This document shows, piece by piece, positions 21,982 through 38,133 of a stretch of DNA of 64,000 nucleotides. Where the stretch lies: NCBI GenBank assembly GCA_022482815.1, contig JAKVOM010000001.1, forward strand, positions 682,001-746,000, read 5' to 3'. The notes under the pieces were generated by a model, which was given only the letters and a program-made list of their open reading frames with translations, did no database searches and was not told where the DNA came from. Numbering within the stretch: the first letter of the stretch is position 1; the number at the start of each line of letters is the position of its first letter. A program made the translations under genes and the position numbers. This DNA comes from Acidaminococcus sp. (lineage in GTDB: Bacteria; Bacillota; Negativicutes; Acidaminococcales; Acidaminococcaceae).

Positions 21982-24900
21982 ATGGAGAAAAAAGTGAAAA
22001 TTAAGATACTTCTGGCTGTGCTTGGGCTTTCATGTCTGTACGTGCCACCTGTTTTTGCGGATCCGTTGAATTTGACTAACAATTCAAATGATGTTTCTTA
22101 TCCGATTATTCTTTCTGCTAGTAATGGAAATGCGGGAGATAATTCTATCGTAGCTACAACAGGGAAGAATACGATTACTGCTTCTTCGGGTTCTTATGCT
22201 GTCCATACGTTTACTGATTCCTCACAGAGAACAAATCCTGTCAATCTTACCATAGAGGGCAAAACGGGTAATGAAATTATTTCGGAGAGAGGCTCAGGTG
22301 TTGTGGCTGGTTACTATGATGTCGAGGGGAGTACGTCTAATTTTGGTTATGGCGGAACCCTTAAGGTGATTGCAGATACAGGAGATAACGTAATTCAGGG
22401 GAACGGTGATCAAGGATATGGTGTGGCTGCCATTAACTCTATCGATGCGAACTCCGGTGTTACCATTGAATCAGTGACGGGCAATAACAAAATTACGGGA
22501 TCTGCCGATGCGGCTGCAGCTGCAAATGGTATCCTCATTATAAAGGCGGACCAGAGCTCTAACTATTTAGAGGGAAACAGATCAGACAACCTGACTGTTG
22601 ACAGCGAAGGCCATGCACTTCATGTGTCTAACCCAAACAATACCTTTAATTCCACGGACCGCGGCGTGGGGTATAGTCTCATAGAGGTGGATGCCGGTAC
22701 ATCCAATACATTCATTGGTAATTATGATATGGCTATCGTCGCTAATGGCGAGAATGCGACGGCCAATATTTCCGCCGGGACGACCAATACGGTTAAACTT
22801 GAAGGCAATGCGCAGCGCACGGCTGGCGGCACAGGAATTTCTCTTGGCAGTGACAATGTTTGGGCCGATTATGCTACAGATACGGCTGAAACGGCCGCTA
22901 TCTTTGCAGCAAACGGTGGTACAGTCAATTTGAGTGGACAAGAGGGAAATACCATTACCGGCGGGGATATGGGTATTTGGGCATTGACGCAAAACCAGAA
23001 AGATGTTGATGAAGATGTTGCCGCAACGGTGACCGTGACTTCAGAAGAGGGAACCAACACGGTGTCCGGTTCCATCTATGGGATTTTGTCTGATCGTTCT
23101 TTCGACGGCGAGATAGATTCTTCCCATGTACAGATGATTACGGGGCTTTTTGAAAGTGAAGAAGTAATATATAATGGCGAAACGCATACGGAATACCATT
23201 TAGGAAATGCCGTCAAGCCGGCTCCTTCTGTGACTCTTGAAGGGATTAATAATAAAATAACAGGGACGAATGGCGCCGGCGTGCGGGCTGATGATGGAGC
23301 TAATGTCTCAATTATAGCTGGACAAGATAATACTATTTCCGGGCCTATAGGAATTCAGTCAGAAGATAGAAGCAGCGTGTCAGTCACAGGACAAAGAAAC
23401 AACACTATCAGCGGCAGTAATGTTGGGCTCTATGCGAAAAGTCAGATAACATATTGCAATTTTTCAAGTGGAGGGGCCTCTAGCCATGGGTACTGGACAC
23501 ATTATATTGACCCTTCTTCTATCTCGATAACTTCTAACGGCGGTACGAATTTAGTCGAAGGAACGAATATTGGAATCCATGTGACTCGGACTCTTAATAG
23601 TACGGGAAGATACTCTAGAAATAGCGACTATGATTACAATAATAAACAGTATAATTATTATCTTGTTTTCAGAGAGGGGAATTCTCCAGGCTCGACGGTG
23701 CTGCTGGATGGGGTAAATAATGAAGTTTCCGGGAAGATAGGAATCAAGGCGGAAAACGATGCCACGGTGACTCTGAAGGCCACAAGAGAAAATAAAGTAT
23801 CCGGCAGCGATGCAGCTATTGTGGCACTGACAGGCAGCAAGACGACGGTGTCTGGCGGTAGTGCGGATATTGTCGGTGATTTGCTTGCGGCTCATGGTTA
23901 TACTTATATTCAGCACGGTTTGGGTTCATTGCCGGAGGAGACGCGGCAGTATCTTTCTACTATTGATATAGGATATGGCGCCGACAGCACTGTCAATGGC
24001 GATATGAGAGCTTATAAAGCAGGTAGCATCACAGTGGCTCCGGCAGAAGGGGAAATGGGTTCTATCGCGATTACAGGGAATGCCTATGCCTATGGATCCG
24101 ATAGTGACCTTCCAGCATCAATAGATACCAGTGACATCGGTCTTGTTATACCTGATGAAATCTATTATGGCAATGAAATTAATACGGATACTCCGGCAAC
24201 CGGTACCGTCGACATTACGCTCTCTAACGGTTCCACTTGGAGCGGTACGGCCGATACGGGACTTATGGCATACCAGGATGGAGATATAACGGAAGACAAG
24301 ATTGGCACAGTCAACTTGGAGCTCAATGACACTTCCATCTGGACCATGACCGATTCCAGCGCTATTACGGATCTTTCCGGAAATGGAGGGACAGTCTACT
24401 ATCATGACGGCGGCGATGCGCTTCAAGTCGATACTGTCACCGGCTCTCACACCTGGGCTTTGGACCTCAACTATGATGATCATTCACAGAGTGACATGAT
24501 TTACGTGGTAAACGGCACGTCCGATACCCAGACACTCGTCGTAAAGAACCTGAGTGAACTAAACAGCCAGATGGATGACGGCGACGCCGTGCGCTTTGCC
24601 ACGGTGAAAAATTCCGGGGGCGGATTCAAGGAAGGGACATCGTATTATCTGACAGACGGTCTTTATAATGATACGCTGACCATCGATAACCGTACGATTT
24701 CTGAAGATCCTGATGCGGATGAAAATTACAACGGCGGTAATAAGCCGTCACAGGAAACAGTCGCCAGCCTCTATGGCGGTGACGATGCTACGAACATTTA
24801 TCTCGTTAAGACGGTCGATGCAGAGGAGAATGCCGGTGCTGTTACTCCGGATAAATCCCGCGACATCGTATGGCGCTACGTAACGGATCTGGATACCTTT

Positions 24901-25788
24901 ACGAATCGTACCGGTCAGAGCCAGTACTTCACGCCCGGCGCGGACCAGGGCGGCTGGGTTCGCCTGAGATACCGCAATCTCGGCGTTGATGGTGTCGGCG
25001 AAGTGGACGGCAATACGTATGAACTGGGATATACGGCCGTAACCCGCCAGAATGACGAACGGAAGGACCGCTTCAGTGCTTCTGTGTCCTATGGCAAAGA
25101 AACGGGCAGCTGGGAAGGCTATGGCGGCGACCTCGAAATCCGCGATTTTACGGTCAGCCTGTTTGATACGCATGAATATTATCCGAGCGCCGAAGAGATG
25201 GCAAAGAAACCGGCCTGGAAGCAGGGCACTCACAGCTACTGGGATAACTACTTCAAGTATCATCATGTGAAGACCGAATACGGTGCTGTCGATCATCATA
25301 CGGGCCTCAAATATGACGGCGACTACAGCCAGAACGTGTACAGTCTCTCTACCGAATACGGGCGGATCAATAAGCTCGACGAAAAGTGGAGCATTGTACC
25401 GCAGGCGCAGCTGCAGCTGTCGTATCTCGGCGGCTATGATTATGTGGACAGCCAGGATATCCACGTGGACGGCGACCACGACTGGAGCCTTATCGGCCGT
25501 CTTGGCTTTGACCTGGTGGATTATCTCGACAAGAAACAGGATAACAAGATCTATTTCAAGGCCAGCCTGCTGCATGAATTCTTCGACGGCAACGACGTGA
25601 CCGTGAGTGCGCTCGGTGACAGTCTCCGCCATGAAGGCGACCTGAGCGGAACCTGGGGCGTCATCGGTCTGGGCTACAGCTCCAGGATCGGTGAAAAGCA
25701 ATACTTCTATCTGGATGCGGAACGCTACATCGGCAACGACTTTGACAGGACGTACAACATCCGTGCCGGCGTGAACTGGAAGTTCTAA
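21982..25788 (+). CDS. Type V autotransporter (beta-helix-like passenger plus outer-membrane barrel)
   Basis: A 1268-residue protein. The signal peptide (about 1-26, ending VFA) leads to a passenger of about 950 residues with irregular repeats of 'xNTIxGxxxGIxA' type (KITGSADAAAA, NTITGGDMGIWA, NTISGSNVGLYA, NEVSGKIGIKAEN), typical of a right-handed beta-helix in adhesins. From about residue 960 follow a linker and a C-terminal autotransporter barrel (GWVRLRYRNLGVD, then alternating strands) ending AGVNWKF with a terminal Phe, the signal for the outer-membrane insertion machinery. No protease triad is evident, so an adhesin role is inferred. The passenger half is clearly more AT-rich than the barrel half. 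AAAGAAGGGG precedes the start. Confidence 0.93.
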   Translation: MEKKVKIKILLAVLGLSCLYVPPVFADPLNLTNNSNDVSYPIILSASNGNAGDNSIVATTGKNTITASSGSYAVHTFTDSSQRTNPVNLTIEGKTGNEIISERGSGVVAGYYDVEGSTSNFGYGGTLKVIADTGDNVIQGNGDQGYGVAAINSIDANSGVTIESVTGNNKITGSADAAAAANGILIIKADQSSNYLEGNRSDNLTVDSEGHALHVSNPNNTFNSTDRGVGYSLIEVDAGTSNTFIGNYDMAIVANGENATANISAGTTNTVKLEGNAQRTAGGTGISLGSDNVWADYATDTAETAAIFAANGGTVNLSGQEGNTITGGDMGIWALTQNQKDVDEDVAATVTVTSEEGTNTVSGSIYGILSDRSFDGEIDSSHVQMITGLFESEEVIYNGETHTEYHLGNAVKPAPSVTLEGINNKITGTNGAGVRADDGANVSIIAGQDNTISGPIGIQSEDRSSVSVTGQRNNTISGSNVGLYAKSQITYCNFSSGGASSHGYWTHYIDPSSISITSNGGTNLVEGTNIGIHVTRTLNSTGRYSRNSDYDYNNKQYNYYLVFREGNSPGSTVLLDGVNNEVSGKIGIKAENDATVTLKATRENKVSGSDAAIVALTGSKTTVSGGSADIVGDLLAAHGYTYIQHGLGSLPEETRQYLSTIDIGYGADSTVNGDMRAYKAGSITVAPAEGEMGSIAITGNAYAYGSDSDLPASIDTSDIGLVIPDEIYYGNEINTDTPATGTVDITLSNGSTWSGTADTGLMAYQDGDITEDKIGTVNLELNDTSIWTMTDSSAITDLSGNGGTVYYHDGGDALQVDTVTGSHTWALDLNYDDHSQSDMIYVVNGTSDTQTLVVKNLSELNSQMDDGDAVRFATVKNSGGGFKEGTSYYLTDGLYNDTLTIDNRTISEDPDADENYNGGNKPSQETVASLYGGDDATNIYLVKTVDAEENAGAVTPDKSRDIVWRYVTDLDTFTNRTGQSQYFTPGADQGGWVRLRYRNLGVDGVGEVDGNTYELGYTAVTRQNDERKDRFSASVSYGKETGSWEGYGGDLEIRDFTVSLFDTHEYYPSAEEMAKKPAWKQGTHSYWDNYFKYHHVKTEYGAVDHHTGLKYDGDYSQNVYSLSTEYGRINKLDEKWSIVPQAQLQLSYLGGYDYVDSQDIHVDGDHDWSLIGRLGFDLVDYLDKKQDNKIYFKASLLHEFFDGNDVTVSALGDSLRHEGDLSGTWGVIGLGYSSRIGEKQYFYLDAERYIGNDFDRTYNIRAGVNWKF

Positions 25789-25850
25789 AGAACTGCTGGT
25801 TGTGTGTCGCGGGTCGTAATGCAGGCTGAAAATCAAAAAACTAACATCTT

Positions 25851-25890
25851 AAAAAAAGGAATGTCGCAAAAAATGCGGCATTCTTTTTTA
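25851..25890 (+). terminator. Intrinsic terminator
   Basis: AAAAAAAGGAATGTCGCA pairs with TGCGGCATTCTTTTTT, with a run of T. Confidence 0.9.
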
Positions 25891-25967
25891 TGCTTCAAAA
25901 CATTTACAAACTTCCCGTCACTCACTGCATTCAGACAGTAACAAATCATTGATATATTTTGATTAAA

Positions 25968-25998
25968 TAGAGATATCTCATAGAGATGTCTCTATAAT
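25968..25998 (+). promoter_or_regulatory. Tandem palindromic operator overlapping a -10 element
   Basis: Two similar palindromes lie in tandem: GAGATATCTC (25970-25979) and AGAGATGTCTCT (25982-25993). Their centres are about 13 bp apart, and the second abuts TATAAT (25993-25998). This layout suggests a repressor or LysR-type site controlling the tricarboxylate gene cluster about 100 bases downstream. The cognate regulator is not proven; the LysR gene at 29544-30470 is the local candidate. Confidence 0.6.
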
Positions 25999-26101
25999 TT
26001 ATATGCGACATTAAGTATTAGAAATTGTTAGAATATTCATTTAAACTAAAAATCAATAAAGATGCATCGGTGCTTGTTTTGTTTATAGAAGGGAGTACGC
26101 A

Positions 26102-26974
26102 ATGGAAGAAAAAAGAGATCAAGTTCCTTATTGCAGCGGCAGAAATTTTCCTAAGGTCACAGTTCCTCAAAACGCCTGCGACTGTCATCATCATATTTAT
26201 GATCCGGTTCATTTCGCATATCAGCCGACGGACGTCCGCAATCAGCCTCCTGCGACGGTTGACGTCTACCGGATGCTGCAGCGGAAACTGGGGCTTACGC
26301 GAAATGTCATTGTGCAGCCTTCTGCTTATGGAACGGATAATCGCTGTACTTTGGCAGCGCTCAAAGAAATGGGAAAGCAAAAGACGCGGGCCATTGTGGT
26401 AGTGGATGCCACGATTACGGAACGGGAGTTAAAGGATTATGACGACCTCGGGGTCAGAGGAGTCCGGTTCAACATTAATTGTGGTTACGATGGCAATTGG
26501 ACCAAAATCCAGGAAATCTGTGAAAAGATTGCTGCTTTTCATTGGTGTGCCTGTTTCTGGATGCCTGCAGATCTCTTGTGGGACGCACGGGATGTGATTG
26601 AGAATCTTCCCTGCACGGTAGTTCTCGATCACCGGGGCCATCTGCCAAGCAATATGGGCATGCGGCACTCGGCTTTTTCTCTTATCTGCGACTGGCTGAA
26701 AAGTGGAAAGGTTTATGTAAAATTGTCCGGTTTGTATATTGATACGGTGACCCCGGATTACAGCGATACCATGAAAATCGGAAAAGCATTTACAAAGATG
26801 AATAGTAATCAAATTCTTTGGGGAACTGATTGGCCGCATCCTTCGTGTTATTCCAAACTCAGACCAATGCCGGATGATGCGTATATGCTGGATTGCTTGA
26901 TGGATCAGGCCGGTACGGAAGAGAATTTCCGAAAAATCCTGGTGGATAACCCGGCAAAACTTTTTGGATTTTAA
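26102..26974 (+). CDS. LigI-like metal-dependent lactonase/amidohydrolase (COG3618 family)
   Basis: A 290-residue TIM-barrel hydrolase of the amidohydrolase_2 family that includes 2-pyrone-4,6-dicarboxylate lactonase (LigI) and sugar-acid lactonases. The catalytic set is visible: H29-x-H31 (CDCHHHIYD), H177 (VVLDHRGH) and D243 (LWGTDWPHP), matching the LigI pattern. The substrate is unknown. The partners (a 2-hydroxycarboxylate carrier and a PrpF isomerase) point to a lactone or unsaturated form of a di- or tricarboxylate. It is the first gene of the cluster; AGAAGGGAG precedes the ATG. The downstream transporter starts 18 bases after its stop. Confidence 0.85.
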   Translation: MEEKRDQVPYCSGRNFPKVTVPQNACDCHHHIYDPVHFAYQPTDVRNQPPATVDVYRMLQRKLGLTRNVIVQPSAYGTDNRCTLAALKEMGKQKTRAIVVVDATITERELKDYDDLGVRGVRFNINCGYDGNWTKIQEICEKIAAFHWCACFWMPADLLWDARDVIENLPCTVVLDHRGHLPSNMGMRHSAFSLICDWLKSGKVYVKLSGLYIDTVTPDYSDTMKIGKAFTKMNSNQILWGTDWPHPSCYSKLRPMPDDAYMLDCLMDQAGTEENFRKILVDNPAKLFGF

Positions 26975-26992
26975 AGAGAAAGGATTGTAATC

Positions 26993-28300
26993 ATGGATGA
27001 AAATAAAGGTCTGACTATTTACGGAATGGACTGGAAACTCTTTGCTTTTTTTGCCATCATTGTCATAGTTTCCGGCTGCTTGGGCATTATTCCCAACCAG
27101 ATGATTGGTGGGATTGCTGTGATGTTTACTCTCGGCATTATTTTTGGGGAACTGGGAGAACGACTTCCTATATGGAATAAATACTGCGGCGGCGGTGCTA
27201 TTCTTGCGTTCCTTGGCTGCGGACTTTTGACTTACTTTAATATTATGCCGAAAAATATCATAGCCATTTCCAAGGGATGGATGAGTACCTATAGCTTTTT
27301 GAACGTGTTTATCTCCATGCTGGTTGTAGGCAGTCTTTTAGGGCTGGACCGCAAATTGTTAATCAAATCCGGCTTGCTGTATCTGCCGGCACTCCTTGCT
27401 TCATTAGGTGTAGCTGCCCTTTTTGGAGTCCTTGGAGGGTATATTTTCGGAATTTCTCCTGCGGAAACGATTACTGCCTATGTACTGCCTATTATGGGCG
27501 GAGGTGCCGGAGCGGGCGCAATCCCCATGGCTCAGGTATATCAGGATGTTACCGGTAAAGACTCTTCTTCTTATTTGAGCTTTGCTATTGCTATTCTGGC
27601 AATCGGGAATATTCTGGCTATCGCTTTTGCCGTCGTTCTGGATAACCTTGGCCGCGTTTTTCCCAAATTAACAGGACACGGCAAACTGGTCAAAGCTGAT
27701 TCTTCAAAGATAGAAACGGAAGAGAGTGCCGAACGGGCAAAAATTAATCTGACTATGGACGATATTGGCTCGGCCATATTCCTTGTCGGAGGATTCTTTG
27801 TGCTGGCTCAACTGATGGCTAAAAAGATTCTTCCTTCAGTATTTGGAGTTGCAATTCCTAATTTTGCCTATTTGATTATTTTTGCAGCGCTGGCTAACAT
27901 TTTGAATCTGATACCGGAACGAAACAAACTGGCTTGTCAAAAGCTGCAGGTTTTTTGCGGCAATAAACTGGTGTGGATTCAGATGGCTGGCTGCGGGATT
28001 ACTTTAATCAACTTCAAGCAAATGATTAGTGTAATGAGTCCTGCCAACTTGACGATGGCGCTGCTGATCGTCGTAGGATGTATTATTGGGTCAGGTGTAT
28101 TCGGGTATCTGGTCGGTTTCTATCCTATTGAATCGGCTATTACTGCCGGTCTTTGCATGGCTAATATGGGCGGTGCCGGTGACCTTGCCGTATTGGGGGC
28201 TGCAAAACGTATGGAACTCATGAGCTATGCTCAAATTTCTTCTCGTATCGGCGGAGCCATTGTACTTTTGGTCGGTAGTTTTATTTTCCAATTCTTATAA
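26993..28300 (+). CDS. 2-hydroxycarboxylate transporter family carrier (CitS/MaeN-like)
   Basis: A 435-residue inner-membrane carrier with about eleven hydrophobic segments. Both re-entrant-loop signatures of the 2-HCT family are present: GGGAGAGAIPMAQVY (about residue 170) and NMGGAGDLAVLGAAKRMELM, followed by QISSRIGG, whose Arg binds the substrate carboxylate in CitS. Family members move citrate, malate or similar acids with sodium or protons. Here the substrate is likely a tricarboxylate (inference from PrpF next door). AGAAAGG precedes ATG 26993. Genes on both sides are within 25 bases, so one operon is likely. Confidence 0.9.
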   Translation: MDENKGLTIYGMDWKLFAFFAIIVIVSGCLGIIPNQMIGGIAVMFTLGIIFGELGERLPIWNKYCGGGAILAFLGCGLLTYFNIMPKNIIAISKGWMSTYSFLNVFISMLVVGSLLGLDRKLLIKSGLLYLPALLASLGVAALFGVLGGYIFGISPAETITAYVLPIMGGGAGAGAIPMAQVYQDVTGKDSSSYLSFAIAILAIGNILAIAFAVVLDNLGRVFPKLTGHGKLVKADSSKIETEESAERAKINLTMDDIGSAIFLVGGFFVLAQLMAKKILPSVFGVAIPNFAYLIIFAALANILNLIPERNKLACQKLQVFCGNKLVWIQMAGCGITLINFKQMISVMSPANLTMALLIVVGCIIGSGVFGYLVGFYPIESAITAGLCMANMGGAGDLAVLGAAKRMELMSYAQISSRIGGAIVLLVGSFIFQFL

Positions 28301-28322
28301 GCGGTAAAAAGAGGTTATAACC

Positions 28323-29462
28323 ATGAGAAAATTCAGAACGGTTTATATGCGCGGCGGTACAAGTAAAGGCTGTTTGTTTCATCGGGAAGACTTACCGACA
28401 GATCCTAAGGAATGGGATTCTATTTTTCTGCAGGTAATGGGAAATCCTGATCCGAAGCAAATGGATGGTATGGGAGGGACAGTCTCTTCCAACAATAAAA
28501 TCGTTGTGATTTGGAAGAGCCAGGAACCAGATGTAGATATTGAATATCTTGTCGGACAGGTTATCGTTGGGAAGAGCCAGGTGGATTATAAATCAAACTG
28601 CGGCAACATGACGGCCGCGGTGCCGGCTTATGCTGTTGAAGAAGGTATGGTTCCGATTGTAGAGCCGGTTACGATGGTTCGTATGCTGAACAAAAATACA
28701 GATAAAAAAATCAATGTTACGGTTCCTATCGATCCAGAAACGCATACCTTTGCCCAGAACGGAGATTGTCATATTGCCGGTATCGATGGTAACGCCGCAG
28801 AACTAAGGGTTAATTTCCTGGACCCTGCCGGTTCCAAAACCGGGAAACTGCTGCCGACCGGCCGCGTACTGGAGGGCCTGGATATTGATGGTAAACGCAT
28901 TGAGGCCACCCTCGTAGATGTTTCGAATCCTTTGATTTTGGTTCGGGCAGAAGATGTAGGGCTCATGGGAACGGAGCTGCCTGCTGAGGTTGATGCCAAT
29001 AAAAGAGCTGCCACATTGCTTGAAAAAATTCGCGGTACCGCTGCTGTCATGATGGGTTTTGCCAGAAATTTGGAGGATGCCAAAGCGAATTCTCCAGCGG
29101 TACCTAAAGTAGGCGTTTTTACCGGCCCGAAGACGTATAAAGGGATTGGCGGCGATACGATAGAGGCAGCTTCGATGGATGTATGTGTCCGCGTGATTTC
29201 CGTTTTTAAATGCCATAAAGCATGTCCGCTTACAGCTGCTAATTCAGTGGCAGTAATGTCCAAGCTGAAAGAATCCATCATCGATAAGACGCTGCATACC
29301 GCTGATGCACTTGCTGAGGGTGTCCGCATTGGCCATCCAAGCGGTGTCATGACGCAGTATGTGGATATGGAAGAAAGTAACGGAACGGTAAAGGTGAATG
29401 GGGTCGCCGGGCAGCGTACGGCGCGCCGCATTATGGATGGCTTTGTTTACGTTAGAAATTGA
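28323..29462 (+). CDS. PrpF/4-oxalomesaconate tautomerase-family isomerase
   Basis: A 379-residue enzyme of the PrpF family (double diaminopimelate-epimerase fold). It has the N-terminal signature YMRGGTSKGCLFHREDLP, the loop MDGMGGTVSSNNK, and the active-site segment VDYKSNCGNMTAAV (K90 and C93). Relatives interconvert trans- and cis-aconitate or methylaconitate, or tautomerise 4-oxalomesaconate, by moving a proton at a C=C bond without cofactor. Beside a 2-HCT carrier, aconitate isomerisation feeding citrate/glutamate metabolism is the simplest reading. It is the last gene of the cluster, with AAAGAGG before the ATG. Confidence 0.88.
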   Translation: MRKFRTVYMRGGTSKGCLFHREDLPTDPKEWDSIFLQVMGNPDPKQMDGMGGTVSSNNKIVVIWKSQEPDVDIEYLVGQVIVGKSQVDYKSNCGNMTAAVPAYAVEEGMVPIVEPVTMVRMLNKNTDKKINVTVPIDPETHTFAQNGDCHIAGIDGNAAELRVNFLDPAGSKTGKLLPTGRVLEGLDIDGKRIEATLVDVSNPLILVRAEDVGLMGTELPAEVDANKRAATLLEKIRGTAAVMMGFARNLEDAKANSPAVPKVGVFTGPKTYKGIGGDTIEAASMDVCVRVISVFKCHKACPLTAANSVAVMSKLKESIIDKTLHTADALAEGVRIGHPSGVMTQYVDMEESNGTVKVNGVAGQRTARRIMDGFVYVRN

Positions 29463-29543: not shown

Positions 29544-30470
29544 TTATATGTTCTCTAAGGACGTATCTTTGAATTCATTTCTTAATAGCTGAATTAAGTA
29601 TAATTCAGCCTTATTAAGATATGTTTCTTCTTTGTATAAGATAGAAATTTCTAGTTTTAAGGGATTTTCAGCATATTTATAACAGTACTTCTGATATTCC
29701 GGCCCCAAGATTTTAACGCAGCGGCCCGGTACGATTGTATACCCCAGGCCTCCGGCCGCCAGCTGGGCAGCAGCAATGCTGCTTTCTACTTCCAAAATCG
29801 TGTGAGGAATGATTTGCGCTTTTTCGAAAACATAGGTTACTTCTTTTGTGATGGAATGCCGCTTTTTGATTCCTATATAAGGTAAAGCAGCAATTTTTTT
29901 CAAATCCAAGATACGTTTATTTTTGTTCAGATACATTGCGTCCATAAAAGCATTTTCGGCAGCAATGAGCTGAACCGGCTCATCATAGAGCTTTTCTTTG
30001 GCGATTTTAATGGGGGCATCACTGTTCCATGGGCACACGATAAAGGAAACTTTGTCGGTCTTCAGCATTTCAATCAAATCGTCAGTGCCGGCTTCCTTCA
30101 TTATGATTTCTGAGTCCGGATATTTACGGCGAAACTCAGGAAGGATATAAGGGAGCATATAGCCTCCTCTTTCTGCCGGTATTCCCATATGAATCCGGCC
30201 TGACCCGCTGTTTTTTAAATCGGCAAGGCGGTTGTATAATTCTGTATTTTCCCGCAAAATAGAACGAGCTGTGTTGACGTAGAGGCGCCCCGCTTCCGTA
30301 AGGGTAATCGGCTGGTGTGATCTTTCAAAAAGTTTCAGGCCGACTTCTTTTTCTATCTGGGAAATGGCATAACTCAGGGATGGTTGGGCAATATATAGCT
30401 TGCGGGCTGCTTTTGTTACGCTTTTACATTCAGCTACGGTAATGACGTACTGAAGCTGGTGCAGATCCAT
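29544..30470 (-). CDS. LysR-family transcriptional regulator
   Basis: A 308-residue regulator. The N-terminal winged helix-turn-helix (1-60) contains QLQYVITVAECKSVTKAARKLYIAQPSLSYAISQIEKEVG. The effector domain (about 90-300) is of the periplasmic-binding type, with FIVCPWNSDAPIK and the usual LAAGGLGYTIVP. The gene is convergent with the LigI-2HCT-PrpF cluster and shares its terminator, so control of that cluster is plausible but not by the usual divergent arrangement. AAGGAGG is upstream of ATG 30470. Confidence 0.88.
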   Translation of the reverse strand: MDLHQLQYVITVAECKSVTKAARKLYIAQPSLSYAISQIEKEVGLKLFERSHQPITLTEAGRLYVNTARSILRENTELYNRLADLKNSGSGRIHMGIPAERGGYMLPYILPEFRRKYPDSEIIMKEAGTDDLIEMLKTDKVSFIVCPWNSDAPIKIAKEKLYDEPVQLIAAENAFMDAMYLNKNKRILDLKKIAALPYIGIKKRHSITKEVTYVFEKAQIIPHTILEVESSIAAAQLAAGGLGYTIVPGRCVKILGPEYQKYCYKYAENPLKLEISILYKEETYLNKAELYLIQLLRNEFKDTSLENI

Positions 30471-33249: not shown

Positions 33250-34105
33250 GACAGCAATTCAAGTCACCGGGTTTTACTACGCCTACCCGAAAAGTGACCT
33301 TATGCTGAAAGATATTAACCTTACTATCGAAAAGGGCAGTTTTACCGCGATCGCCGGACCCAGCGGCGCAGGCAAGACAACGCTCTGCCGGGTGATGACG
33401 GGAATCGTGCCATACTATTATGGCGGCCGTTATGCAGGTAAGGTCGAAGTATTGGGCGAAGATATCAAAGGAAAGAAAATTTCCGATGTGGCTATGCGTG
33501 TCGGCATCATGCTGGATGACTATGAAAGCCAGATGGTTTCTCTGACAGCAGGGGAAGAAATCAGTTTCGGCCTGCTGAACCATGGCTTCAGCCCCGATGA
33601 AGTGGATGCCCGCGTCAGTGAGGCGTTAAACGAAGTGGGACTGCCGGGCCGTGAGAATTACCAGCTGGATGAACTTTCCGGCGGGCAGCGGCAGCGTCTT
33701 CTTCTGGCCTCCGTACTGGCAACGCGTCCGGAAGTCCTGATTCTGGATGAACCGGTATCCGCTATGGATCCGGACGGGGCCCGTTCTCTCTACGAATTGG
33801 TTTACCGCCTTCATCAGCAGTTTGAGATGACGGTCATTGTAGTAGAACATGACCTTAATTATCTGCTTCCGTATATGACCCATCTGGTACCCCTGGAAGA
33901 CGGCAAAATAGCAGTGTCCGGGCCTTATGAGGAAGCGGCCCGTGAGGCCTTTGAGCATCCGACGCTCTACAGCAATCTGCCGGAGTTATGGCAGGTCAAG
34001 CTGGGCCTTGAAAAGAAGTATCATGTGAAGCTGGGCGAGTGGCGCGGTGAAGAGGAAGCCATGGCCGAACTTCAGAATAAATTTAAAGGGGGTGCCCAGG
34101 CATGA
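33242..34105 (+). CDS. ECF transporter ATPase A (EcfA1-like)
   Basis: A 287-residue ABC ATPase. Walker A is GPSGAGKTT, the Q-loop region IMLDDYESQMVSLTAGEEI, signature LSGGQRQRLLLASVLA, Walker B VLILDEPVSAMDPDG, and switch VVEHDLNYLLP. An ECF-type coupling element (ETVEDEI-like TAGEEISFGLLNHG) is visible. The start is ATG 33242 behind GGGAGG, inside the S-component gene. It pairs with the next ATPase. Confidence 0.92.
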   Translation: MSETAIQVTGFYYAYPKSDLMLKDINLTIEKGSFTAIAGPSGAGKTTLCRVMTGIVPYYYGGRYAGKVEVLGEDIKGKKISDVAMRVGIMLDDYESQMVSLTAGEEISFGLLNHGFSPDEVDARVSEALNEVGLPGRENYQLDELSGGQRQRLLLASVLATRPEVLILDEPVSAMDPDGARSLYELVYRLHQQFEMTVIVVEHDLNYLLPYMTHLVPLEDGKIAVSGPYEEAAREAFEHPTLYSNLPELWQVKLGLEKKYHVKLGEWRGEEEAMAELQNKFKGGAQA

Positions 34106-34911
34106 TTGAAGCAAAAGCAGTCAACTTTGCTTACCGCCGCGGTATCCCGGTGTTGAAGGATATCACGTGCACCATTGCCGACGGGGAAGCTGTGGCCCTT
34201 TTGGGGCATAACGGCAGCGGCAAGACGACGCTGAGCCGTCTTTTTATGGCGCTGAACCATCCCCGGAGCGGGCAGGTACTGGTCGACGGCAATGATATCA
34301 TCAATTTTGAACCGGCCGATCTGGCGGATAAAATCGGCTATGTATTCCAGAACCCGGATTTGCAGATTTTAGGGGATACGGTGTATGAAGAAGTGGCCTA
34401 TGGCCTTAAAAATAAAAAACTCCCCAAATCGGCGATCGATCGCCAGGTTCGGGATGCGGTCGACGTCATGGGGCTCACGCCTTTCCTTGACCGGTACCCG
34501 CGTTCCCTGTCGTTTGGACAAAAACGCCGTCTTGGCGTTGCTACCGCTCTGGCCCTGCAGCCTAAGACACTGATTCTGGACGAAATTACGAACGGCCAGG
34601 ATGAACAGGAAAAGCAGCATATGATGGCTTATCTGGGAAAGCTGCAGGAAGAACGCCATATGACGCTGATTCTGATCACCCATGACATGGATATTGCGAG
34701 AACTTACACCACACATAGTCTGGTGCTCAAAGACGGGGACCTCGTGTATGACGGGTCCACGCAGGAACTTTTTGACGGAAAGCGTCCTGTGGAGGAATGG
34801 GGCTTGAAACAGCCCGCGCTGTCAAAGATCTGTGCACTGCTTAAAGTGAAGGGTGTCCGTACACCGGAGGAACTCTGCAGCCGTCTTGTACCAAAGGAAG
34901 GGGTGAAGTAA
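34102..34911 (+). CDS. ECF transporter ATPase A' (EcfA2-like)
   Basis: A 269-residue ABC ATPase. Walker A is GHNGSGKTT, the ECF hallmark is KIGYVFQNPDLQILGDTVYEEVAYG, and the signature is degenerate (LSFGQKRRLGVATALA, with SFGQ in place of SGGQ). Walker B is LILDEITNGQDEQEKQHM, with Ile-Thr where EPT is usual, and the switch is LITHDMDIA. It overlaps the first ATPase gene by 4 bp. The two ATPases are clearly non-identical, as in a heterodimeric ECF module. Confidence 0.92.
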   Translation: MIEAKAVNFAYRRGIPVLKDITCTIADGEAVALLGHNGSGKTTLSRLFMALNHPRSGQVLVDGNDIINFEPADLADKIGYVFQNPDLQILGDTVYEEVAYGLKNKKLPKSAIDRQVRDAVDVMGLTPFLDRYPRSLSFGQKRRLGVATALALQPKTLILDEITNGQDEQEKQHMMAYLGKLQEERHMTLILITHDMDIARTYTTHSLVLKDGDLVYDGSTQELFDGKRPVEEWGLKQPALSKICALLKVKGVRTPEELCSRLVPKEGVK

Positions 34912-34912
34912 G

Positions 34913-35587
34913 ATGAAATTAACTGCCTTTACCCGTCTGATTCTGGTGCTTGCCGTGACCGCCTGGGTATTTCTGCTTCCGATTCCGGCTGTGGCGACGA
35001 TCCTCGCCCTGGAACTTGTAATCCTGCTGTACATCAAACGTGATCGTATGACTATGGCTGCTATCGGGACCCTGACTGTGTTTACAGCTATGATGGTGGT
35101 GCTGCAGCTGCTTTTTGGTTCCAAGCTTTATGTAGCTCTTACGGGCGGTCTCCGGATGTTCGTCATGACGACGGCCTTTCTCTGCCTTCTCGCCTCGACA
35201 AAAATTCAGGATATTGCCCAGGCTCTCGTCGAAAAGTTCCATATGCCCTATGAATACGCCTTTATGCTGACTACGGCTCTGCGTTTTGTGCCAGACTTCT
35301 TGTCTGACAGCGCTGTTACGCTGGATGCCCAGTCCTGCCGCGGTTATTCCAACCGGGGCAATGCACTGAAACGGCTCTTTGCGTACCTTGCCGTAGTGAA
35401 GCCGCTCGTGATGAGGGCTGTAGCTAAGTCTGACACGCTGGCGCTTTCGATGGAACTTAAGGGATTTGGCCCGAATACCTACAAGAATCGCCGCCCAATG
35501 AAACTGGGTCTGTTTGATTATGTAGTACTGTTCATTACGATTGTGCTTTGCGCTTATCCGTTCTGGGCCAAGAAAATAGGATTGTAA
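34913..35587 (+). CDS. ECF transporter transmembrane component T
   Basis: A 224-residue protein with four to five membrane segments and the EcfT cytoplasmic coupling helices, including AQSCRGYSNRGNALKRL (an A-R-G-like motif) and ALSMELKGFGPN. These helices link the S component to the ATPases. GGGGTGAAG lies just before ATG 34913. It is the last gene of the S-A-A'-T operon, followed by a terminator. Confidence 0.9.
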   Translation: MKLTAFTRLILVLAVTAWVFLLPIPAVATILALELVILLYIKRDRMTMAAIGTLTVFTAMMVVLQLLFGSKLYVALTGGLRMFVMTTAFLCLLASTKIQDIAQALVEKFHMPYEYAFMLTTALRFVPDFLSDSAVTLDAQSCRGYSNRGNALKRLFAYLAVVKPLVMRAVAKSDTLALSMELKGFGPNTYKNRRPMKLGLFDYVVLFITIVLCAYPFWAKKIGL

Positions 35588-35591
35588 ATTT

Positions 35592-35640
35592 AAAAGGGAT
35601 TGTGAAATAGTGAACGTTCATTATTTTACAATCCTTTTTT
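35592..35640 (+). terminator. Intrinsic terminator (GGATTGTGAAA family)
   Basis: AAAAGGGATTGTGAAATA pairs with TATTTTACAATCCTTTTTT. It ends the ECF operon. Confidence 0.92.
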
Positions 35641-35971
35641 CGCCGCCCGCAGTTCGTTTAAAACAGCTTCTTGAACCCAATATGCCGTCTGCCGTCCCTT
35701 TCAAGATTTTACTGCGGCAGTTTGTCCCTATGATTGTACTCATTATGATTCCCCGTCTGCTTGTCACTGGTCAATAAGGTAAATTTTTGAAACTACAAAT
35801 TGGACGAAAGTATACGAAGTTTTCGTAAAGATACATAAAATTTTCATATTTTTCTCCGAAAATATTGTATAATAGAATAAACTGTTACTCTGAGCCATTT
35901 TTGTACACTGAAAATGAGCTGGAATGGCCAGTCCAGTTTTTTGAATTATTTGTCGCGAAGGTGGTGAGACC
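35641..35971 (+). promoter_or_regulatory. Promoter region of the V-ATPase operon
   Basis: A 330-base gap without an ORF I would support. It holds a -10 TATAAT (35868-35873) with a weak -35, and just upstream short dyads (ACGAAGTTTTCGT at about 35816-35828) that could be an operator. The predicted leader of about 90 bases precedes GAAGGTGGTGAG and the first ATG. Confidence 0.6.
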
Positions 35972-36283
35972 ATGTCCATGCTGGAAGATATCAAAGCGGC
36001 GGAAAAAGCTGCCGATGAAGCTAAAAAGGAAGCGCAGACCGAAGCCCGTGCTGTAATGCGTGATGCCCAGGCAAAAGCCAATGCCGAAGCAGAAGCAATG
36101 ATTGCTGACGCCCGTAAACAGGCGAAGGAAACCGTAGCCAAGGCGGAAGCAGAGGCAAAAGAAAAAGCACAGGCCCTGATTGCCGACAGTCAGGCCAAAG
36201 ATGCCGAGGCGGCAGAAAAGGCTCGCACGAAGGTCGATGAAGCGGTGAAGTACATTATGGAAAAGGTCGTGATTGAATGTTAG
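35972..36283 (+). CDS. V-type ATPase peripheral-stalk subunit (G/H type)
   Basis: A 103-residue, almost wholly helical protein of Ala, Glu, Lys and Gln (AEKAADEAKKEAQTEARA). It is a continuous coiled coil like the G/H subunit (NtpF in the Enterococcus naming, AtpH elsewhere) that pairs with subunit E to form the stator stalk. It is the first gene of the operon and overlaps the subunit I gene by 7 bp. The low-complexity sequence makes orthology uncertain, but the position is the canonical one. Confidence 0.82.
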   Translation: MSMLEDIKAAEKAADEAKKEAQTEARAVMRDAQAKANAEAEAMIADARKQAKETVAKAEAEAKEKAQALIADSQAKDAEAAEKARTKVDEAVKYIMEKVVIEC

Positions 36284-38133
36284 TTCCTATGCAAAGACTA
36301 ACGCTCTACGCCTTGAAATCCGACCGTGATGCACTTCTCCTGGCTCTTCAGAAGGATGGCAGCGTGATGCTGGATCCCGATGGGGAGAAAAGCGGAGGAA
36401 CGGGAGCGGAGGCAGTGAGCTCCCAGCTTGAAAAAGCAAGCCTCGTCCTGCGCTTCATGGAGAAAAACGGAGGTAAAAAACCTCTCATTACACCGCGTCA
36501 GGAAGTTTCCTATGGTGATTTCCTGAAAACCAGTGAGGAAGGCCGCTCGGTGACAGAAAAGGTGGATACCCTTTCCAACCGAATTGCGGCAATGGACAGT
36601 GAGGCCGCAGCCTTGAGAACGCAGGCTGAAAGTCTGGAGCCCTGGAAGGATCTGGAGATTCCCCTGGAACAGCTGGGACTTACAGAAACAACCCGTATTT
36701 ATGCAGGATTCCTTCCTGATAAAGAGGTTCCTGTCGTCCAGGATGCCATTAAGGACCTTTTGGCCGAGATGAAGCTCTATGGAATCGGACCTGACGGACA
36801 GGCTGTGGTGGTTGTTGCTCACGTGGATGCTGACAGCGACGTAAAGCGCATTTTGAAAGAAAACGATTTTTCCGAGGCCGTCCTGCCTAAGCGCAGCGGC
36901 AAGGCCGCGGAAATCATGAAGGAACTGAACGCGGAAGCAGACGAACGCCTCGCCAAGGCGGAAGCCTGGCGCAAAGAAGCGGTATCGGCAGCTTCCGGAA
37001 AGCAGCAGGTGGAATTGTATTACGATCAGCTTGCCGCAGAGGGCGACCGCCTCGCGCATAACGGGACGGAGACAGATAGTGCCTTCATGATGACCGGCTG
37101 GGTGCGTAAGGACCGGAAAAAACGTCTGGAAGAAGTGGTTTCCGGAGTTACCGATGCTTACCAGCTGGAATTCAGGGATCCTACCCCTGATGAAGTTCCT
37201 CCGACGGTACTGCAGAACAACAAACTGGTCAGACCGTACGAATCAGTAGTCCAGCTGTATTCCCTGCCGGCGGCCGGAACCATCGACCCGGACTGGATGG
37301 TGGCTCCGTTCCACTTCATCTTCTTCGGAATGATGATGTCTGATGCCGGATATGGTATCGTCATGACGATTGCTTTCTATATCGCCATGAAGAAATTCAA
37401 ACCAAAAGGATTCAGCGGCAACCTTACAATGGTTGCGTTCCTGGGCAGTATTTCTACAATCCTCTGGGGCGCACTGTTTGGCGGCTGGTTCGGTGCCGAG
37501 TGGCATCCGCTGCTCTTTGTGCCGATGAATGAACCGACGAAAATGCTGGCTCTCTGCTTCCTGCTGGGTGCCCTTCATCTGGTTGCCGGGATGTTGACCA
37601 AGGCTTACATGATGATTCGTGACGGCGACGTCGCGGGCGCGTTCTTTGACGAATTCAGCTGGCTCATTATGTTTGCCGGATTCCTTCTCATGGCGTTGCT
37701 GCCGGGCCCTGTAGGCAAGTACATGGCCATTTTCGGTGCTGCCGTGATTGTATTGTTCGGCGGGCGTGACCGCAAAGGAATTTTCGGCCGTCTGATCGGC
37801 GGACTCCTGAGCTTGTACAATATCAGCGGATATCTGAGTGACCTGCTCAGTTATTCCCGTATCTTTGCTCTGGGTCTTTCGACCGGCGTTGTCGGTATGG
37901 TCATTAATACTCTTGCAAGAATGCTCAGTTCGGCCGGTTCTCTCGGTACGGTGGGGGCAGTAATTATCCTCATCGGCGGGCATTTCTTCAACATCTTAAT
38001 CAATATTCTGAGTGCCTTTGTGCACAGCAGTCGTCTGCAGTACATTGAGTTCTTCGGAAAATTCTTCGAACCTGGCGGCCGTGCTTTCCAGCCCCTGGCA
38101 TTCCGGACCAAGTATACGGACATTGTGAAATAA
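36277..38133 (+). CDS. ntpI: V-type ATPase subunit I (membrane stator)
   Basis: A 618-residue protein. The cytoplasmic N-terminal half (about 1-330) has coiled coils (VTEKVDTLSNRIAAMDSEAAALRTQAESL). The membrane half (about 350-618) has about seven to eight segments, with VAPFHFIFFGMMMSDAGYGI, a SRIFALGLSTG segment (essential Arg in YLSDLLSYSRIFALGLS) and the closing VHSSRLQYIEFFGKFFEPGGR. The conserved Arg provides the ion path against the rotor. ATG 36277 overlaps the upstream gene; ATG 36289 is an alternative. Confidence 0.94.
   Translation: MLVPMQRLTLYALKSDRDALLLALQKDGSVMLDPDGEKSGGTGAEAVSSQLEKASLVLRFMEKNGGKKPLITPRQEVSYGDFLKTSEEGRSVTEKVDTLSNRIAAMDSEAAALRTQAESLEPWKDLEIPLEQLGLTETTRIYAGFLPDKEVPVVQDAIKDLLAEMKLYGIGPDGQAVVVVAHVDADSDVKRILKENDFSEAVLPKRSGKAAEIMKELNAEADERLAKAEAWRKEAVSAASGKQQVELYYDQLAAEGDRLAHNGTETDSAFMMTGWVRKDRKKRLEEVVSGVTDAYQLEFRDPTPDEVPPTVLQNNKLVRPYESVVQLYSLPAAGTIDPDWMVAPFHFIFFGMMMSDAGYGIVMTIAFYIAMKKFKPKGFSGNLTMVAFLGSISTILWGALFGGWFGAEWHPLLFVPMNEPTKMLALCFLLGALHLVAGMLTKAYMMIRDGDVAGAFFDEFSWLIMFAGFLLMALLPGPVGKYMAIFGAAVIVLFGGRDRKGIFGRLIGGLLSLYNISGYLSDLLSYSRIFALGLSTGVVGMVINTLARMLSSAGSLGTVGAVIILIGGHFFNILINILSAFVHSSRLQYIEFFGKFFEPGGRAFQPLAFRTKYTDIVK

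Follow-up and report, generated by a model that had tools for sequence, protein, structure and literature searches.

Introduction

Among the closest described counterparts of the locus considered here, a run of three genes for a LigI-like lactonase, a 2-hydroxycarboxylate (2HCT) transporter and a PrpF-family isomerase in the gut bacterium Acidaminococcus sp. (a stretch of 64,000 nucleotides, positions 682,001 to 746,000 of contig JAKVOM010000001.1, hereafter the window), is the tarRAB system of Bacillus velezensis, described in 2024, in which TarA is a PrpF-superfamily aconitate isomerase accompanied by an importer and a LysR-type regulator; an Acidaminococcus is named there among the predicted assimilators of trans-aconitate (PMC11495376). 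The window shares the PrpF-superfamily isomerase, the importer and the LysR regulator with tarRAB, whereas the tarRAB importer TarB belongs to the MFS, the LysR gene lies divergently upstream, and the two-gene operon is given without a lactonase or an aconitase; the words "lactonase" and "amidohydrolase" are both absent from the main text of that article. The genes ybhD-ybhH-ybhI-ybhJ of Escherichia coli are annotated as putative, and YbhD has been linked to growth with L-malate (PMC9068703). This cluster likewise combines a PrpF-family isomerase, a carrier, a LysR regulator and the YbhJ aconitase (to which the aconitase of the corresponding operon of A. fermentans has 69% identity), but its carrier is of the DASS family, no LigI-like gene occurs in the stretch examined, and the PrpF protein of the window shares just 33% identity with YbhH. 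In the 2-methylcitric acid cycle of Shewanella (acnD-prpF), an aconitase-family dehydratase is paired with a PrpF isomerase that acts on its product in S. oneidensis and has the conserved residues K73 and C107 (PMC5690661); unlike in that system, the aconitase here is of the YbhJ type and lies away from the trio of the window, and a lactonase and a carrier are added.

The PrpF–carrier–LysR core was already known as tarRAB and ybhHIJ was known as a cluster of unproven function, the lactonase front end being the added part. The first-pass annotation of the window, which presented the trio as a compact and undescribed route, thus went too far for the core and stands for the lactonase, which was not found in the tarRAB description. 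No LigI-like lactonase in such clusters was found in the literature surveyed, from which most subscription journals are absent, although no search was aimed exactly at a LigI-like lactonase beside an aconitase; the combinations "isocitrate lactone" with "lactonase" and "alloisocitrate" with "trans-aconitate" gave no articles. According to the reading that we favour with moderate confidence, the operon serves to import and degrade a hydroxy-tricarboxylate in its lactone form, the isocitrate type being the most likely one. The locus would then correspond to tricarboxylate catabolism of the YbhHIJ/TarAB type, modified by a lactonase at its entry that probably acts on isocitrate-type lactones.

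Organization of the operon

The run and its presumed regulator comprise the following genes:

26102..26974, plus strand: LigI-like Amidohydro_2 lactonase of 290 amino acids, with catalytic H29, H31, H177 and D243 present
26993..28300, plus strand: 2HCT transporter of 435 amino acids, CitS-like overall (Pfam and comparison with CitS)
28323..29462, plus strand: PrpF-family isomerase of 379 amino acids, with K59/C93 corresponding to K73/C107 of S. oneidensis PrpF
29544..30470, minus strand: LysR-type regulator, tail-to-tail with the operon and 81 bp downstream of it (Pfam)

The first three genes are separated by 18 bp (lactonase and carrier) and 22 bp (carrier and PrpF), and all lie on the plus strand. 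The cluster originally annotated here was confirmed by the open reading frames, by Pfam scores far above the cut-offs (Amidohydro_2, 129 bits; 2HCT, PF03390, 444.8 bits; PrpF, PF04303, 368.1 bits) and by the closest solved structures by sequence, namely, the 2-pyrone-4,6-dicarboxylate hydrolase LigI for the lactonase (4d8l, E-value = 2e-34), CitS for the carrier (5a1s, E-value = 5e-108) and methylitaconate isomerase for the PrpF-family protein (3g7k, E-value = 7.7e-70, identity = 37%). As a functional unit, the trio is present but incomplete, as relatives add a YbhJ-type aconitase, of which the genome of the window has at least three elsewhere. This genome, of 3.06 Mb, also contains three PrpF genes, two LigI-like genes and three places with citF above the cut-off.

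Gene neighbourhoods of the LigI-like lactonases

The gene-neighbourhood comparison covered 80 loci found with the lactonase of the window and three others, which were divided into 19 close homologues (clade A) and 64 others. Clade A was chosen after inspection of the identities (at least 47% over the full length) and of the context, and with one further row it forms a well-supported branch (100/99); L026, which is inside this branch, and L033, with 59% identity over a shortened stretch and outside the tree, were assigned to the 64 others. In the sequence available for each locus, a carrier from a tricarboxylate-, dicarboxylate- or glutamate-type family was found nearby at 16 of the 19 clade A loci and at 4 of the 64 others, an aconitase at 9 and 2, and PrpF at 6 and 0, respectively, whereas a LigK-like RraA protein was found near 2 of the 19 and 23 of the 64; the reference proteins were largely drawn from clade A neighbourhoods, so the contrast with the other loci is inflated to some degree. 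Two of the loci, L020 and L024, share one contig, and several have contig ends near the genes.

The composition of the runs is consistent with the tricarboxylate context that had been proposed for the window and that is strengthened by these neighbourhoods and by the physiology of A. fermentans (PMC3035267). In three contigs of the Clostridia/Lachnospiraceae group (L012, L013 and L016), a LysR gene adjoins a run of LigI, MatC and a YbhJ aconitase, which in L012 is cut by the end of the contig after 166 residues, and two more contigs of this group stop at MatC; in L013, citD, citE and citF come after the aconitase. The Megamonas run consists of LigI, DASS, PrpF, a YbhJ aconitase and an MmgE/PrpD-family gene, and one soil Bacillota and the genome G345 have DASS, LigI and PrpF with another type of aconitase. 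The carrier family varies among the loci (2HCT, DASS, MatC, CitMHS and GltS). The 341 genomes examined in the class contained 30 LigI-like places, of which 6 had a YbhJ-type aconitase no more than 10 kb away, with 0.31 expected, a value that is somewhat low since the YbhJ counts are lower bounds (up to three candidates per genome); four of the six pairs are distant homologues (24–26% identity) from two related genera, so that the pairs are not independent.

In four Negativicutes genomes of two genera (L178, L179, L180 and L181), distant amidohydrolases (24–26% identity) with MatC-like carriers were observed within 10 kb of YbhJ-type aconitases. Separately, LigI relatives at L020, L082 and L052 lie near an Asp/Glu-racemase-like protein and presumable four-carbon-acid-kinase-like and class II aldolase-like proteins, which suggests another hydroxy-acid route.

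Catalytic and pocket residues of the lactonase

The AlphaFold model of the lactonase (pLDDT 94.5) had its best matches in the Protein Data Bank with LigI (4di9/4d8l; TM-score 0.85, identity = 31%), and the catalytic residues H31, H33, H180 and D248 of LigI correspond to H29, H31, H177 and D243 of the window, which are invariant in all 19 clade A members. The two proteins thus share the fold and the catalytic His/His/His/Asp set, but they differ in positions that we take to form the substrate pocket of LigI (Y49, R124, R130, Y156, R183 and R217). In the MAFFT alignment, R124 alone is kept, as R122, and R, G, W, H and I stand at positions 49, 130, 156, 183 and 217; the alignment is gapped around these positions, and phmmer pairs R217 with Tyr and R130 with Asn, so the losses can be stated with more certainty than the exact replacements. 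The LigI residue at any of these five positions is carried by none of the 19 clade A members, among which Arg46 (LigI position 49) is invariant. LigI itself forms a long, distant branch of the tree, with an unsure placement, and the 4-sulfomuconolactone hydrolase model NF042924 gave 153.1 bits for the lactonase, below its curated cut-off of 500.

These residues bear on the possibility that the locus is a fragment of protocatechuate/gallate 4,5-cleavage, in which the LigI-like enzyme would open 2-pyrone-4,6-dicarboxylate to 4-oxalomesaconate (OMA) and the PrpF protein would act like LigU/GalD. LigI and LigU-type proteins perform adjacent steps of that route, the fold of the lactonase is nearest to that of LigI, the isomerase matches the NCBIfam model of OMA tautomerase better than that of PrpF (but stays under the OMA tautomerase cut-off), and RraA-like proteins occur near two clade A loci and in three places of the window genome. 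However, the presumed pocket residues have been lost from all of clade A while the catalytic four are invariant, RraA-like proteins are far scarcer near clade A than near the other loci, and citrate lyase genes lie downstream in one relative, so that this origin appears highly improbable. For the same reasons, of the two kinds of substrate first suggested for the LigI-like enzyme, the lactone of a hydroxy-tricarboxylate fits best, and the lignin-type 2-pyrone is disfavoured. The genome-wide presence of RraA/LigK-like proteins was also considered as evidence for a lignin route and was rejected as uninformative, since such proteins occur in 10 of the 13 genomes searched, among them also G003 and G006, both without a LigI-like match.

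Isomerase and carrier

No PrpF subfamily could be assigned to the isomerase with NCBIfam models, as the scores for 2-methylaconitate isomerase (TIGR02334, 270.9 bits versus 440.55) and OMA tautomerase (NF033377, 302.1 versus 440) were both below the cut-offs. This protein would catalyse an allylic, aconitate-type isomerisation. Its K59 and C93 align with the catalytic residues K73 and C107 of PrpF from S. oneidensis.

The carrier belongs to the 2HCT family and keeps R428 of CitS, but it scored 491.6 bits with the CitS citrate/sodium symporter model NF047943, below the curated 600, and R402, N186, S405 and Y348 of CitS are replaced by M, A, A and L. At CitS positions 402 and 348, it is identical to the Lactococcus plasmid carrier CitP and to a carrier encoded next to a malolactic enzyme. 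The 2HCT carrier of Paenibacillus camerounensis, which adjoins LigI and an aconitase, has kept R402, N186 and S405, and that of Sporomusa has Q, I and T at these positions. CitS is inhibited by isocitrate and malate and not by tricarballylate, which has no hydroxyl (PMC4718727); a hydroxyl-free acid such as trans-aconitate is therefore an unlikely cargo of a 2HCT carrier, unless the altered pocket permits it, and trans-aconitate as the imported compound appears doubtful.

The same observation bears on a simpler explanation, in which the locus is a plain tarRAB-like unit for trans-aconitate or citrate, with the carrier and a PrpF aconitate isomerase under LysR control and the LigI-like enzyme as a side activity or a passenger. 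It agrees with the composition of tarRAB and the prediction for Acidaminococcus made with it, with the conserved K73/C107 equivalents and with the fermentation of trans-aconitate via citrate by A. fermentans, which also ferments citrate (PMC3035267), as had been assumed for the genus at the outset. Nevertheless, the lactonase gene comes first in the run, and other bacteria also have it alongside carriers and aconitases; the 2-hydroxyl needed by CitS is absent from trans-aconitate, and TarB is an MFS and not a 2HCT protein; we regard this explanation as unlikely, though worth keeping in view.

Aconitase partners in the genus Acidaminococcus

In A. fermentans VR4 (G001), the run consists of LigI (56% identity to that of the window), 2HCT pieces (70% and 77%), PrpF (77%) and an aconitase with 69% identity to E. 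coli YbhJ, and beyond a LysR gene the stretch contains another aconitase, a lactonase of the beta-propeller type and a MatC-like carrier. For trans-aconitate fermentation, the genes that the genome paper of this species names within Acfer_1968-1973 include those for an isocitrate/isopropylmalate dehydrogenase and a MatC carrier as well as two for aconitate hydratases (PMC3035267), and gene order and position indicate that these are probably the genes of the VR4 stretch studied here. In the window genome, the aconitase encoded at 2.375 Mb shares 81% identity with the one in the A. fermentans run, and its gene is next to a LysR gene whose product has 52% identity to the LysR of the window and to an isocitrate-dehydrogenase-like gene. 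A. provencensis (G002) has PrpF (76% identity to that of the window), an isocitrate-dehydrogenase-like gene and a YbhJ aconitase in one run, with a LysR 57% identical. Thus, the trio of the window looks like the partner of a YbhJ/isocitrate-dehydrogenase-like set that is here split in two. PrpF, a carrier and a YbhJ-type aconitase lie side by side at two other loci of the window genome (L102 and L103) and not in the window.

The 2HCT gene of A. fermentans VR4 (L101 8759-9623, minus strand) lacks an inner part, has a frame change and looks broken, while its neighbours are free of stops. This, together with the different carrier families among the loci, would agree with the absence of any single pathway, the carrier moving malate, lactate or citrate alone and the enzymes serving something else; however, the short intergenic distances (18 and 22 bp) and the conservation of the order LigI-2HCT-PrpF in two species make this very improbable.

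Other lactonases and citrate lyase genes

The second LigI-like gene of the window genome (L105 8312-9145, minus strand; C1:990.3 kb) has 33% identity and belongs to another branch. It is followed on the same strand by citD-citE-citF, and a divergent LysR gene and a MatC carrier are also present there; a gene of this second type is located within a few kb of citD-citE-citF in A. provencensis (L140) and adjoins citE-citF in G048. In addition, PF10282-like beta-propeller lactonases, which are unrelated to LigI, adjoin PrpF/YbhJ clusters at L102, L187, L190, L191 and L101, and in E. coli (L143), pgl, the product of which has 29% identity to the beta-propeller lactonase of L102, adjoins ybhDHIJ. 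The occurrence of three lactonase lineages by one kind of pathway suggests that lactones of the pathway acids are real substrates.

Where tested, citF and citD scored above the cut-offs, whereas CitE was below its cut-off at all four loci tested, and the substrate of the lyase may thus be a related acid, e.g., citramalate. This result is also in keeping with a pathway for a methylated or dicarboxylic analogue (of the citramalate, methylitaconate/dimethylmalate or malate type) in which PrpF would be a methylitaconate-type isomerase and the lyase one of the citramalate type, and it is joined by the 3-methylitaconate isomerase 3g7k as the best solved relative of PrpF and by the agreement of the carrier with CitP and the malolactic-locus carrier. 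The YbhJ-type aconitases and isocitrate-dehydrogenase-like enzymes nevertheless indicate tricarboxylates, as do the scores of citF and citD, and such an analogue is considered quite unlikely.

Proposed mechanism and its assessment

In the breakdown of an isocitrate-type lactone, the 2HCT carrier would bring in a 2-hydroxycarboxylate or its lactone, and the LigI-like enzyme, in which the His-X-His motif, His177 and Asp243 are observed, would open the lactone. The acid would then be dehydrated or rehydrated by the YbhJ-type aconitase, the gene of which belongs to the run in A. fermentans and has a separate location in the window genome, while PrpF would move the double bond of the trans or another isomer to give cis-aconitate, as AcnD and PrpF do with methylaconitates, a pairing that the gene order shows. 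The product may leave as citrate for citrate lyase or as isocitrate, which the isocitrate-dehydrogenase-like enzyme would convert to 2-oxoglutarate.

A more specific version concerns a non-standard diastereomer. A full anaerobic route is conceivable in which the lactonase opens the lactone of alloisocitrate or a related hydroxy-tricarboxylate, the YbhJ-type aconitase removes water from this diastereomer to give trans-aconitate and PrpF converts it to cis-aconitate; the route is rated as a rather unlikely one. If true, it would place the lactonase, the odd aconitase and the isomerase in one line and would give a substrate class for E. coli YbhH and YbhJ.

Several observations weigh against a pathway for isocitrate-type lactones. 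A lactone as the substrate of the lactonase is suggested by neighbour genes only, the neighbourhood contrast carries the inflation described above, and PrpF, aconitase and the isocitrate-dehydrogenase-like gene are all absent at 5 of the 19 clade A loci (some on short contigs). No aconitase adjoins the trio in the window itself, the four citrate contacts of CitS are absent from the carrier, which at two of them resembles CitP and the malolactic-locus carrier, and the broken gene of A. fermentans VR4 implies that the carrier is dispensable there; the low CitE scores point in the same direction. Within the genus, the lactonase of A. massiliensis and A. provencensis adjoins GltS and an MmgE/PrpD-family gene, with no PrpF or aconitase in the stretch examined, and five of the nine genomes have no LigI-like match. 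A lactonase of either type (LigI-like or beta-propeller) was present in 5 and absent in 11 of the 16 YbhJ stretches of the genus, which cover 18 of its 23 listed above-cut-off YbhJ places. The lactonase is clearly optional within such clusters.

Regulatory region and neighbouring genes

The LysR-type protein encoded at 29544..30470 is the likely regulator of the operon. The upstream region is as follows:

25840..26101, plus strand: intergenic stretch 5' of the lactonase gene, with a hairpin and T-run near 25855-25895 (by eye)

The hairpin with its T-run lies behind the gene upstream, which makes a separate start of the trio likely, and the purine-rich GAAGGGAG precedes the lactonase ATG. Consensus scans for a promoter and a terminator in this stretch gave no more matches than in shuffled sequences. 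Just upstream of the operon, positions 21982-25788 encode a protein of 1268 amino acids that is a candidate autotransporter-like protein by appearance. The genes annotated downstream of the trio in the window are LysR, YitT and EamA, and positions 34102-38133 contain genes for an ECF-type ATPase and a CbiQ-like protein, with that for V-type ATPase subunit I after them.

Biological significance

Sugarcane leaf and, after wine, human plasma are among the sources for which isocitric lactone has been named, and it also appears in a table of metabolites from Holstein steers (PMC6129145, PMC11860350 and PMC10673339), which makes this lactone plausible as a nutrient. The uptake and breakdown of an isocitrate-type lactone by the operon would tie a lactonase clade for which no assigned function was found to the tricarboxylate metabolism of gut and rumen anaerobes. 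It predicts that tricarboxylate lactones, e.g., isocitric lactone, serve as bacterial nutrients, and it would open a way to test what the ybhHIJ genes of E. coli, conserved but unassigned, do.

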